Shown piece after piece: positions 21,057-30,593 of a DNA stretch of 64,000 nucleotides. The position numbers and the translations under genes are program-made. The stretch's first letter is position 1, and each line of letters begins with the position of its first letter. The stretch is from positions 14,223,001 through 14,287,000 of the forward strand of contig NC_057924.1 in NCBI RefSeq assembly GCF_018873765.1. The letters run 5' to 3'. Source of the stretch: Telopea speciosissima. Lineage: Eukaryota; Streptophyta; Magnoliopsida; Proteales; Proteaceae. The notes under the pieces were generated by a model. That model saw nothing but the letters and a program-made list of their open reading frames with translations, was not told the origin of the DNA and ran no database searches.

Positions 21057-21895
21057 ATACATAATAAATTGTAGTCATTCATGGTTAGAAATAAACAAAT
21101 CCTAATAAAAAAAATTAAGAAACATTCAAACATTTGTAATAAAAAATTAAAACATATAAACAACTATATAACCTTATAAGTAGTAAAAAAAACATACAAC
21201 AATAATCAATTCAATTCAATGTAAGTTTAGATCAATTTCAATAAATAAAAAAAAGTAAAAGAGAAAGATGCCATTTGAATAAAAAATAAAAAACCTACTA
21301 AAACCGTTTAAAGTTATTTAAAATCGAAACCATTGAAACCATTTACTAGAGTTCGGTTTTGGTTTTACCTAAAAAATCTTACATCGAATCGAACCAAACT
21401 GTTTAACACCCTTATTAATAGGTTTTTTTTAACATGTCCGTAGTTTAGATTGGGCTTACGCTAGGCTAACACCATGGAAATGAAGTTTTATAGTTTGTTG
21501 GTTCAAGGGCAACCCAGGCAAAGCTGAAAAAGGATAGTGCTTCCTTCTTGGGATAAGGGTGTCAAAATCAAACTGAAACCATTTATTGAAATCGAACAAA
21601 ATCATTTAAACTGAAACCGTGAAATCATTTAATTAATGGTTCGGTTATGTTTTGAAATTGAGACCGTTTTAATTAAACGCTTTAAAATGATTCGGACTGT
21701 TTAACACTATTAGATTGACGTAAATGTGCCAAAATCTAACGAAAAACTGTTTACCAAAATTAAACCGTTTAAATTGAAACAATAAAACCGTTTAATAAAT
21801 GGTTCAATTATATAATTTAAAAATTAAAACCCTTGACTTGGGTTGTGTTAGGGTTCCAGACCTTTCCATACCTTCGAAGTCGGAACGCCTGTGCC

Positions 21896-21985
21896 CACCA
21901 ATCTCCTATAAAAGGGCATCAGAAACCTAAAACCCTAAACCCTGCGTTGTTCTTGCAATTGACATTTGAGGGAGAAAAAGAGCGA
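21896..21985 (+). promoter_or_regulatory. TATA box, CCAAT-like and telo-box core promoter
   Basis: CCAAT at about 21898 is followed directly by TATAAAA at 21907-21913, then tandem telo-boxes (AAACCCTAAACCCT) at about 21938, and an ATG at 21986. A TATA box plus a telo-box near the start site is the arrangement known from plant ribosomal-protein and translation-related genes. The predicted leader is about 45-55 nt. Confidence 0.7.
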
Positions 21986-23399: not shown

Positions 23400-25161
23400 T
23401 GTTAACAAAACTGGAATTGAGAGAGAATGGCTAGAATAATCGATGTGATTATTCAGCCCTCATATTTATAATTTGTAGGAAATATATCAGAATTACATAA
23501 ATAGCCCCATATAGCCTACAATATTAGCTGTAGGGAAATAACAATAGAAAAATACCAAAAATACCCTTATAGAATCGGGTAACACATCTCAACACTCCCC
23601 CTCAATTTGGTGCATAGATATCACACATACCTAACTTGACTAGGTTAGGATAAAACAACTTCCCAATCAACCCTTTGGTGAAGACATCAGCTAGTTGATT
23701 TCCAGACTTCACAAAAGGGATACAAATCTACCCACTCTCTAACTTCTTCTTGATGAAGTGTCTGTCAATCTCCACATGCTTGGTACGGTCATGCTGTACT
23801 GGATTGTGGGAAATGTTAATCGCTGCTTTGTTGTCGCAGTACAACATCGTTGGAAAATGAACAAAACCACGGATATCTAGGAGTAAACTCTGAAGCCACA
23901 ATAACTCACATATGCCCTGGGCCATGGCACGGAATTCAGCTTCAGCACTTGATCTTGCCACAACATTTTGTTTTTTACTCTGCCATGTTACCAAGTTCCC
24001 TCCAACAAAGGTACAGTAGCCGGAGGTTGACTTCCTGTCTAGATTACCACCCCAATCAGCATCTGTATAAGCCTCAATACGAAGATGGTCATGAGGAGAC
24101 AAAAGAATCCCTTTTCCTGGAGCTGATTTCAAGTAATGAAGAATACGGAGAATAGCAGCCATATGAGTGGAATAGGGATCATGCATGAACTAACTTACTA
24201 GGCTCACAGCAATGGCAATATCTGGTCTGGTATGGGAGAGGTAAATCAGTTTTCCCACCAATCGTTAATATCTGCCCTTATCAACAGCCTCACCATCCTT
24301 CTCTTGTAGACGGATATTAGCTTCCAAAGGAGTGTCACAAGGGTGACAGCTAAGCAAACCAGTTTCTGATAGTAAATCTAGAACCACTTTCTTTGGAAGA
24401 AAAAGATGTCCTTTGGAGACTGAGCAACTTCAATCCGAAGAAAATATCTTAGCTGGCCTAGATCTTTTATGTCAAATTCCCATCCCAAGAAAGCCTTCAG
24501 GTGAGAAACTTCATCTGCATCATTGCTAGTCACAACTATATCGTCAACATAAACTATAAGAAGAGTGACTTTTTCTCCCTTTTGCTTGATAAACAGAGTG
24601 TGATCAGCATTACTGAGGGTCTTCAAACAAGCTAATGAAGAGAATGGAGGCTGAGGGCAGTAGCTGAAGAAGATTCTCCAAGGGAAGAAGCAGCCGAAAT
24701 ACTTGTTGAGGCCTAATCTTAAAAAAAAAATAGAATCTTCAAATCGCAGGCAGTCCTGCAGCTTCCATCGATCTAAAAAATTGGTGGAGAAATTCGAGGT
24801 AGTTGGGGCAGCATCTAGATCAGTGTGATCACCCCCCTAGTACTACCCTAATGGGAGAAGAAGATGAGAGAAGACTGAGACAGAGGGTGGGAAGGGATGA
24901 AGTTCGAATGAGGGGAGGGAGGTGGGCTTTGAAAAAAATCGATCAAAGTTGATTTGGCTTTGATACCATGTTAACAAAACTGGAATTGAGAGAGAATGGC
25001 TAGAATAATCGATGTGATTATTCAACCCTCATATTTATAACTTGTAGGAAATATCAGAATTACATAAATAGCCCCATATAGCCGACAATATTAGCTATAG
25101 GCAAATAACAACAGAAAAATACCAAAAATACCCTTATAGAATCGGGTAATACATCTCAACA
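23400..25161 (-). mobile_element. Ty1/Copia LTR-retrotransposon fossil
   Basis: LTRs at 23400-23594 and 24969-25161 read TGTTAAC...CTCAACA on the plus strand. A 5-bp duplication GCTTC flanks the element (23395-23399, 25162-25166). On the minus strand a TGGTATCAAAGCC primer-binding site (initiator tRNA-Met) follows the right LTR, and a GAGGGGGAG polypurine tract precedes the left LTR. Only the end of pol remains: a reverse-transcriptase part with the YVDDI motif (24378-24626) and an RNase H part with YTDADWGG, CDNKAAI and the TKHVEIDRHFIK motif (23728-24186). The element is broken and much shorter than an intact Copia. The LTRs differ at about eight places in ~193 bp, so insertion was fairly recent, roughly one to a few million years at usual plant rates. 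Confidence 0.93.
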
Positions 25162-26448: not shown

Positions 26449-27265
26449 TACATAATAAATTTTAGTCATTCATGGTTAGAATACACAATTATGGTAAGAA
26501 TAAACAAAACCTAATAAAAAAAATTAAGAAGCATTCAAACATTTTTAATAAAAAATTAAAACATATAAACAACTATATAACCTTATAATTATTAAAAAAA
26601 ACATACAACAATAACCAATTCAATTCAATGTAAAGAGAAAGATGTCATTTGAATAAAAAATAAAAAGCCTACTAAAACTGTTTAAAGTTATTTAAAACCG
26701 AAACCATTGAAACCACTTATAGAGTTCGGTTTTGGTTTTACCTAAAAAAACTTGCATCGGATCGAACCAAACTGTTTAACACCCTTATTAATAGTTGTTT
26801 TTTTATTACATAACCATAGTTCAGATTGGGCTTACGCTAGACTAACACCATGGAAATGAAGTTTTAGAGTTAGTTGGTTCAAGGGCAGCCCGGGCAAAGC
26901 TGAAAAAGGATAGTGCTTCCTTCTTGGGATAATGGTGTCAAAATCAAACTGAAACCATTTATTAAAACCGAACCAAATCATTTAAACCGAAACCGTGAAA
27001 ACATTTAATAAATGGTTCGGTTATATTTTGAAATTGAGACCGTTTTAGTTAAACGCTTTAAAATGAACCGGACTGTTTAACACTATTAGATTGACATAAA
27101 TGTGCCAAAATCTAACAAAAAACTGTTTACCAAAATTGAATCGTTTAAATCAAAACAATAAAACTGTCTAATAAATGGTTCAATTATATAGTTTAAAAAT
27201 TAAAATCCTTGACCTGGGTTGTGTTAGGGTTCCAGACTTTCCATACCTTCGAAGTCGGAACGCCT

Positions 27266-28220
27266 GTGCCCACCAATCTCCTATAAAAAGGCATCAGGAG
27301 AAACCTAAAACCCTAAGCCCTGCGTTGTTCTTGCAATTGACATTTGAGAGAGAAAGAGAGCGAATGATGTTGAGATCGTCGGAAGCAATCCTTGTGCCCA
27401 CCAATCTCCTATAAAAAGGCATCAGGAGAAACCTAAAATCCTAAGCCCTGCGTTGTTCTTGCAATTGACATTTGAGAGAGAAAGAGAGCGAATGATGTTG
27501 AGATCGCTGGAAGCAATCCCCGTGCCCACCAATCTCCTATAAAAAGGCATCAGGAGAAACCTAAAACCCTAAACCCTGCGTTGTTCTTGCAATTGACATT
27601 TGAGAGAGAAAGAGAGCGAATGATGTTGAGATCGTCGGAAGCAATCCCTGTGCCCACCAATCTCCTATAAAAAGGCATCAGGAGAAACCTAAAACCCTAA
27701 ACCCTGCGTTGTTCTTGCAATTGACATTTGAGAGAGAAAGAGAGTGAATGATGTTGAGATCGACGGAAGCAATCCCTGTGCCCACCAATCTCCTATAAAA
27801 AGGCATCAGGAGAAGCCTAAACCCTAAACCCTGCGTTGTTCTTGCAATTGACATTTGAGAGAGAAAGAGAGCGAATGATGTTGAGATCGTCGGAAGCAAT
27901 CCCTGTGCCCACCAATCTCCTATAAAAAGGCATCAGGAGAAACCTAAAACCCTAAACCAATCTCCTATAAAAAGGCATCAGGAGAAACCTAAAACCCTAA
28001 ACCAGTCTCCTATAAAAAGGCATCAGGAGAAACCTAAAACCCTAAACCCTGCGTTGTTCTTGCAATTGACATTTGAGAGAGAAAGAGAGCGAATGATGTT
28101 GAGATCGTCGGAAGCAATCCCTGTGCCCACCAATCTCCTATAAAAAGGCATCAGGAGAAGCCTAAAACCCTAAACCCTGCGTTGTTCTTGCAATTGACAT
28201 TTGAGAGAGAAAGAGAGCGA
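27266..28220 (+). repeat. Tandem array of promoter, leader and start codon (~128-bp unit)
   Basis: Units begin TGCCCACCAATCTCC at about 27266, 27394, 27522, 27650, 27778, 27905 and 28123, a period of 127-128 bp. The sixth unit is longer because a 46-47-bp subunit carrying TATA and telo-box is reiterated (near 27958 and 28005). Each full unit holds CCAAT, TATAAAAA, telo-boxes, a GA-rich leader and ATGATG, or ATGATC in the last. The first six starts (27364, 27492, 27620, 27748, 27875, 28092) open a 16-codon frame reading MMLRSSEAI...VPTNLL, or a close variant. Its TAA stop lies inside the next unit's TATA box. Copy A has a single unit. Confidence 0.95.
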
Positions 28221-28607
28221 ATGATCTTGAGATCGTCGGCGGCCATTGCTTCGAAGATGTTGAGGCTGGTGGCAGTCTCATCTCGACAATCCATTTTCTG
28301 CCACCGAGTAACCGTAGCCTCGCCGGAAAGCCTTAAACGTAATCTTTCATTTTCGTTCTATGATCCATTCGTGCCTCGATTTCCATCTCCTGCCGATCAA
28401 TCTCGTGGATACCGCCGTGGACTATCTATCAACAGGGATGAGGAAGAGGAAGACGAAGACGAAGACGATGAGGAGTTCGAAGTAGGGTTTGATTGCCACG
28501 AGGAGGATTTGGATTATGAAGAAGAAATGTTTGGGGAGGAGGAGGATGAGGTTAATGACCAAAACGGTGATGGAGAAATCCATCGGATGAAAGATCATCA
28601 AGAGTGA
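28221..28607 (+). CDS. Small acidic, probably mitochondria-targeted protein, copy B (128 aa)
   Basis: Paralogue of the gene at 21986-22363, with the same three-part layout: an Arg/Ser-rich presequence (MILRSSAAIASKMLRLVAVS), a short middle (YDPFVPRFPSPADQSRGYRR) and an acidic tail (DEEEEDEDEDDEEF ... EEEDEVNDQNGDGE, HRMKDHQE). It starts at the last ATG of the tandem leader array, where the second Met codon of copy A is ATC. The frame is intact despite many substitutions and small in-frame length changes in the acidic part, which suggests constraint. Upstream copies of the start in the array could act as short upstream reading frames. Function unknown. Confidence 0.68.
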   Translation: MILRSSAAIASKMLRLVAVSSRQSIFCHRVTVASPESLKRNLSFSFYDPFVPRFPSPADQSRGYRRGLSINRDEEEEDEDEDDEEFEVGFDCHEEDLDYEEEMFGEEEDEVNDQNGDGEIHRMKDHQE

Positions 28608-30198: not shown

Positions 30199-30250
30199 AT
30201 TGTTATAATGTTTATGGATATTATTAATATGTCAAAAGCATTACTTGTAC

Positions 30251-30322
30251 TGTGGCTGCTGGGATTCGAGCCCAGGTCTCTACGGCCACAACGTAGAATT
30301 CTTACCACTAAACTACAGCCAC
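30251..30322 (-). tRNA. tRNA-His (anticodon GTG)
   Basis: On the minus strand the 72-nt gene folds as a standard cloverleaf. The acceptor stem is GTGGCTG/CAGCCAC with discriminator A. The D-arm contains TAGTTTAGTGGTAA. The anticodon stem CTACG/CGTAG encloses loop TTGTGGC with anticodon GTG at 30289-30287. The T-arm has GGTTCGAAT-type sequence (CTGGGCTCGAATCCCAG). There is no intron. A TTTT run about 13 nt downstream can end Pol III transcription. The base-pair-preserving anticodon stem suggests a functional nuclear gene. Confidence 0.93.
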
Positions 30323-30593
30323 ATGGTTGAAGTTAAATATTGGGAATCGAATTTTATTATGTGATTTAGATAAGCTACCAATTATGAAATTGCTTGGCAA
30401 TCAAACCATCACAAAATCACAATGATCAGGTCATATTATTAAAAGGATAAATTATACATGGGTTTACCTAATGCTATGTGATACTAGAGGTACCTCAAGT
30501 TTCAAAAACTATGTTTGGGGTATCCCTTTTCATACTTTCAATTTTTCCTATTCCACAATCAAACTAACTCCCCACCACCACCTCTTCCTCTAG
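30323..30593. other. Short AT-rich spacer
   Basis: Nothing recognisable apart from the 5' flank of the tRNA-His gene on the minus strand. Confidence 0.4.

Follow-up and report, generated by a model that had tools for sequence, protein, structure and literature searches.

What becomes of a gene whose own core promoter, 5′ leader and start codon are repeated in tandem ahead of its coding sequence? The question is posed by one of two neighbouring genes in a stretch of Telopea speciosissima DNA (64,000 nucleotides, hereafter the window), where an initial annotation had seen an amplified promoter and a possible translational dimmer. The array, which appears to be a minisatellite built from the gene's core promoter and 5′ leader together with its first ~six codons, is as a sequence not a product of chance, and like a promoter VNTR it occupies the promoter and leader of one gene. 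It is present in the assembly and was well described apart from its number of TATA boxes; its reading as a dimmer went too far. Most likely, to judge from the letters themselves, we are dealing with an unselected minisatellite in a relaxed paralogue, albeit one with an unusual consequence.

Architecture of the array

Tandem Repeats Finder (TRF) detects a 128-bp period at 27263-27958 (5.4 copies, 96% matches, score 1315), together with further overlapping rows within the array of period 218 (27784-28176), 45 (27911-28048, 3.1 copies) and 128 (28001-28239). Exact scans place CTATAAAAA nine times in the array, at 27281, 27409, 27537, 27665, 27793, 27920, 27965, 28010 and 28138, and seven leader ATGs at 27364, 27492, 27620, 27748, 27875, 28093 and 28221. 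The seven ~128-bp units with promoter and ATG that had been proposed are thus present as units of leader and ATG, but the TATA boxes number nine, with spacings of 128, 128, 128, 128, 127, 45, 45 and 128 bp, because a 45-bp piece containing TATA box and telo-box is present three times. Neither leader nor ATG lies between the copies of this sub-repeat (Table 1).

Table 1. Features of the array gene, its neighbouring paralogue and two related copies elsewhere in the genome. Positions refer to the window unless a contig is named.
Feature	Position	Strand	Basis or remark
Complete array (core promoter, leader, first codons), with nine TATA boxes and seven units bearing an ATG	27263..28250	+	TRF, exact scans
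TATA 1	27282..27289	+	exact scan
TATA 2-9, first bases	27410, 27538, 27666, 27794, 27921, 27966, 28011, 28139	+	exact scan
45-bp sub-repeat, three copies nested in the array; CCAAT or CCAGT, TATA and telo-box	27911..28048	+	TRF, spacings 45, 45
uORF 1, MMLRSSEAILVPTNLL, stop in TATA 2	27364..27414	+	exact scan
uORF 2, MMLRSLEAIPVPTNLL, stop in TATA 3	27492..27542	+	exact scan
uORF 3, MMLRSSEAIPVPTNLL, stop in TATA 4	27620..27670	+	exact scan
uORF 4, MMLRSTEAIPVPTNLL, stop in TATA 5	27748..27798	+	exact scan
uORF 5, MMLRSSEAIPVPTNLL, stop in TATA 6	27875..27925	+	exact scan
uORF 6, MMLRSSEAIPVPTNLL, stop in TATA 9	28093..28143	+	exact scan
Main ORF, array copy, 128 aa, open	28221..28607	+	ORF scan, alignment
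ORF of neighbouring paralogue (21.9-kb gene), 125 aa	21986..22363	+	exact scan, protein search
Single promoter/leader unit, 21.9-kb paralogue	21898..21985	+	sequence comparison
Upstream flank common to both genes	26449..27272 and 21058-21897	+	49 differences in 803 compared bases
C8 element, 1574 bp	C8:36615245-36616818		inverted ends
C10 element, 1614 bp			inverted ends; gene copy with three stop codons

The CCAAT motif and telo-boxes that had been ascribed to every unit are largely there: CCAAT occurs in eight of the nine copies (CCAGT in the other), and the telo-box AAACCCTAA is exact in eight of nine and altered in unit 2. Each TATA box, however, has just one telo-box, and CCAAT lies only four bases before TATA, whereas a CCAAT-box is normally found at another distance from it. 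Across the window, both strands counted, 12 telo-boxes were observed against 1.09 expected from shuffles; the array further holds seven GA tracts. Between 27263 and 28260 there are 14 ATGs: twelve come from the six upstream units, each of which has an in-frame pair, and the other two are the main start and codon 13 of its frame. Variation is confined to twelve columns of the unit. Six of these precede the ATG, in a stretch of 91 columns, and six fall in the 37 columns running from the ATG up to the next CCAAT; of the latter, two differ only in the last unit, whose ATG serves as main start.

Assemblers are known to struggle with near-identical tandem units, and an artefact by which the unit number was expanded or collapsed would be in keeping with an array known from one assembly only. 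We nevertheless regard this as improbable, given that the units carry private differences and include a distinct 45-bp triplication, and that no second, differing version of the locus turns up among the at least 13 genomic matches to the unit. At 1 kb the array is also shorter than the usual span of a long read. A title in the reference list of PMC13080361 points to the use of long reads for the Telopea speciosissima assembly.

Relatives of the two genes

The genome examined comprises 823 Mb in 1287 contigs; the window lies on contig 9, and contigs C6 to C11 measure 57-69 Mb. The array gene and the 21.9-kb gene form one tandem segmental duplication. An ORF between them (23728-24186, minus strand) resembles by eye the RNase H end of a copia-type retroelement, and a tRNA-His (GTG; 30250-30323, minus strand) lies 3′ of the array gene; at gathering scores Rfam gave nothing in the window except a tRNA.

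Searching the genome with one unit returned at least 13 matches. Eight of them lie in the array itself and one at the 21.9-kb gene; C10 and C8 each contribute a whole-unit match, and C7 and C6 match over leader and start. Among these, the TATA-bearing relatives at 21.9 kb and on C8 and C10 have one unit each and an array exists only at the array gene, so that the single unit attributed to the neighbouring paralogue is borne out and holds for the C8 and C10 relatives as well. To speak of a natural series in promoter copy number is, by the same token, an overstatement, for only a one-unit and a nine-TATA state are observed.

A protein search of the genome gave nine matches, with open frames at the array copy, at 21.9 kb and on C8; the others are the C10 copy, interrupted by three stops, and fragments, broken or partial, of which C6 has three and C7 and C11 one each. 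The array-copy protein has no Pfam match at E up to 1. Pfam identities for the paralogue were sub-threshold only (CDC45, E=0.28; astrovirus capsid, E=0.86) and were rejected, as were four matches from a PDB sequence search with the paralogue only (E 0.17-0.97), taken as chance. By eye, the predicted protein appears to begin like a presequence and to end in an acidic tail.

The C8 and C10 copies have ~965 bases in common with the 21.9-kb gene, promoter included, and are enclosed by inverted flanks of 256 bp at 92% identity (C8) and ~300 bp at 78% (C10). Pack-MULEs are recognized by long terminal inverted repeats around a captured gene and by a target duplication of about 9 bp. At both elements eight of nine flank bases match, the C8 flanks being runs of T, and for the C8 repeat end the genome yields at least 42 matches, with 40 of 885 candidates scored; neither element's repeat ends were found in the window. 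We take such long-inverted-repeat elements with a captured gene to be Pack-MULE or Mutator-like, and in our reading both copies would be gene passengers of a Mutator-like element.

Origin and age of the array

The word GTCGG occurs on the promoter side at 27254-27258 and in the first codons of unit 1 at 27378-27382, 124 bp apart; compared with the 128-bp unit, this spacing leaves ~4 bases of net filler. Read directly, the sequences at the join are GAAGTCGGAACGCCTGTGCCC on the promoter side, GATCGTCGGCGGCCATTG on the coding side and GATCGTCGGAAGCAATCCTTGTGCCC at the first junction. All six unit joins, from promoter to first codons, are identical except for point differences at four columns, and from the recurrence of one join six times we infer a single founder event followed by amplification. 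GTCGG is likely the microhomology of that founder duplication, which most simply would have taken in ~124 bp after the local gene duplication and then expanded. An alternative birth, with the break a few bases deeper in the coding side and two later changes, would fit the data equally well.

Pairwise, the six full units of 127-128 bp show 1-6 differences (15 pairs, 52 differences, ~2.7%), less than the 6.1% (49/803) that separates the flanks of the two genes. The array therefore looks younger than the gene duplication, unless its units have been homogenised; homogenisation between units would give it a falsely young look.

Of the three frames possible at the join, one ends in the TATA box, one stops after 23 codons and one enters the next ATG frame. 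That a stop falls in a TATA box six times follows from the copying of a single join six times, and the idea that selection holds the stops there was dropped, since all six share that join. Upstream of the ATG, the main frame continues through the leader without a stop for 55 codons in the 21.9-kb gene (21821-21985) and for 48 in the array gene (28077-28220), so that a unit length divisible by three could have given N-terminal extensions instead of upstream open reading frames (uORFs).

Upstream reading frames

All six uORFs are complete before the main start, each of 16 codons and each ending with a TAA within the next TATA box, exactly as first described; every upstream start is moreover a double, in-frame ATGATG. 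The zero to six upstream frames that had been predicted by choice of TATA box are likewise right as arithmetic, the coordinates giving 6, 5, 4, 3, 2, 1, 1, 1 and 0 uORFs downstream of TATA 1 to 9. From a stop to the next start the gaps measure 76-77 bases, and once 167.

A or G at position -3 makes a favourable start context. In each uORF pair the first ATG is preceded at -3 by C, or in unit 4 by T, and the second by A, while the main ORF retains the first ATG only, with C at -3; its second codon is ATC, compared with ATG in the 21.9-kb, C8 and C10 copies, and the next ATG in the main frame is codon 13, with A at -3. By this comparison the array gene has lost the second ATG, which the paralogue and the decoys retain, and the uORF starts look at least equal to the main start in context. 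Such contexts would support little protein from upstream starts, not selection for that outcome.

Could the array be a selected translational dimmer, each unit adding a start site and a decoy frame such that more promoter does not mean more protein, and regulated TATA choice setting the number of uORFs? All 12 upstream ATGs and all six stops are intact, and the second ATG is gone from the main start but retained in the decoys, as this reading would have it. With only 12 variant columns, however, intactness means little, and the part from the ATG to the next CCAAT, which bears most of each uORF and holds half of these columns, is not less variable than the remainder of the unit. Among the six uORFs there are four codon differences, three of which alter the peptide; the numbers are small, but they give no hint that the peptides are being kept. 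The coding change of the array gene, too, looks unconstrained (see below). Together with the single copied join, these points leave the dimmer of the initial annotation possible as an effect but unlikely as something selected. Just as doubtful, in our estimate, is a self-limiting promoter array, in which unit number gained by unequal crossing over would move transcript number and protein per transcript in opposite directions and, given the weakened main start, would create a heritable, length-variable rheostat with TATA choice setting zero to six uORFs.

Constraint on the array gene

Over its 128 codons the main ORF is uninterrupted, and the two differences in length that it shows, of 6 and 3 bases, preserve the frame. 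Along the alignment its divergence from the neighbouring gene (28221-28607) peaks in columns 180-300, with several states common to the C6 relative. Under simulated random substitution the ORF stayed open with probability 0.51 (20 changes), 0.22 (45) or 0.16 (55), substitutions only and no indels being modelled; an open frame, a weak sign of constraint, was accordingly dropped as proof of function, as chance keeps it open in 0.16-0.51 of cases (55 to 20 changes).

Pairwise dN/dS of the array gene is 0.85 against the 21.9-kb gene, 1.42 against C8, 1.03 against C10 and, lower than these, 0.73 and 0.64 against the two pieces of the broken C6 relative; for the 21.9-kb gene it is 0.30 against C8 and 0.12 against C10, and C8 against C10 gives 1.54. 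The array gene departs at 34 codons from the state found in most of the other three. When the broken C6 relative serves as outgroup, 18 of these changes fall on the array-gene branch (4 synonymous, 14 nonsynonymous) and seven on the other stem (1 and 6), nine being unplaced. The 4:14 split is what would be expected without constraint (binomial p=0.78), and the coding change of the array gene thus looks free of visible constraint.

Compared with C8, the array gene's leader has diverged less than its coding sequence (1/82 versus 44/378, p=0.002); compared with the 21.9-kb copy, the difference is not significant (4/88 versus 43/378, p=0.07). A conserved leader was dropped as proof of a working promoter, since between these two genes the leader has diverged no less than the upstream flank (4/88 versus 49/803, p=0.81). 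The coding sequence is itself more diverged than the flank (43/378 versus 49/803, p=0.002), and this holds for synonymous sites as well (10/78, p=0.03). Conversion or mixed ancestry of the coding sequence is possible, and such a mixed history may weaken both the dN/dS and the neutral readings.

Discussion

With confidence only slightly better than even, we favour a promoter/leader minisatellite in a relaxed paralogue whose last TATA box gives the useful mRNA and whose upstream starts are neutral or mildly repressive. Each TATA box could start RNA ~30 bases downstream, in the telo-box: at that distance CCCTAA of the telo-box is found in the seven units inspected, with the box of unit 2 altered, and in unit 1 the telo-box, counting from the first T of the TATA box, runs from +26 to +34, at the predicted start. 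A start there would leave a leader of ~50 bases. RNA from the ninth and last TATA would then have a normal short leader with zero upstream ATGs and RNA from the first a leader of ~900 bases with six frames, starts further upstream placing one to six sixteen-codon uORFs in the leader and hence yielding little protein. As arithmetic only, were half of the ribosomes to pass each frame, 1.6% would get through all six. For protein output the consequence would range from none to mild repression. Since the coding sequence of the array gene changes without visible constraint, the array itself is probably unselected.

Promoter repeats are known to influence expression. In P. digitatum, overexpression of CYP51A or CYP51B is ascribed to a 126-bp tandem repeat (or a 199-bp insert) in the promoter (PMC5415137), more motif copies in the R6 allele of apple MYB10 are reported to strengthen auto-activation (PMC5671642), and promoter repeats in yeast are tied to expression change (PMC3899988). 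By analogy with these precedents, the extra TATA, telo-box and GA units could act as a transcriptional booster that raises initiation at the last unit, upstream starts being minor. Like the CYP51 and R6:MYB10 repeats, the array is a short head-to-tail promoter repeat before one gene, of similar unit length in the fungal case. In contrast to them, its unit takes in everything from TATA box and presumed start site through the leader to the start codon and first codons, and with these adds decoy frames. A booster whose repeat carries the start codon would sit partly within the transcript, and we hold this explanation to be distinctly unlikely.

With eight exact telo-boxes and seven GA tracts packed into 1 kb, the array might instead recruit PRC2 and silence its own copy; GAGA and telobox motifs have been named PRE-like in plants (PMC8228231), and silencing would fit the relaxed coding constraint. 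The 21.9-kb paralogue, however, has a single telo-box and GA tract that resemble ordinary promoter/leader parts, and a Polycomb-recruiting array seems to us very improbable. A telo-box core promoter has AAACCCTA between -50 and +50. Most boxes of translation-related telo-box genes are reported within -50 to +50 of the start (PMC3022908). The promoters of such plant genes resemble the array unit in having a telo-box near the presumed start and TATA upstream, but the array has the TATA/telo-box piece nine times (eight boxes exact).

M. tuberculosis has tandemly repeated promoters of variable copy number (PMC12817950), where, as here, the promoter itself is repeated just upstream of a gene. That system is bacterial and its copy-number variation has been shown, whereas the present array comes from one assembly; in the passages on these promoters no upstream frames are mentioned. 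Human TYMS likewise has a tandem repeat in its leader, a 5′-UTR VNTR located 13 bp before the start codon (PMC3320636), with a unit of 28 bp compared with the array's 128-bp unit that bears core promoter and ATG. In rDNA intergenic spacers, tandem sub-repeats of 30-300 bp include the core promoter in some eukaryotes, their number changing probably by unequal crossing over (PMC4691072).

rDNA spacer promoters belong to RNA polymerase I. They share with the array a core promoter duplicated in tandem sub-repeats, yet they lie in spacers of rRNA genes, whereas the array repeats the TATA/telo-box promoter of a protein-coding gene. Judged by title and opening of the abstract, none of the papers listed in searches of a mostly open-access literature describes a repeat joining core promoter, leader and start codon, in agreement with the annotators' statement that they knew of no such case. 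Expression-tied promoter repeats, a 5′-UTR repeat, promoter repeats of rDNA spacers and repeated bacterial promoters are thus known already; what appears new is the unit with a start codon and decoy frames.

If the array is transcribed, a single gene would be preceded by zero to six copies of a near-identical start context, the one-unit paralogues at a distance of 6 kb and on two further contigs would serve as controls, and the effect of promoter number could be told apart from that of uORF number in nature. If the locus is silent, it would offer a clean case of a minisatellite born where a promoter shares microhomology with the first codons of its own gene.
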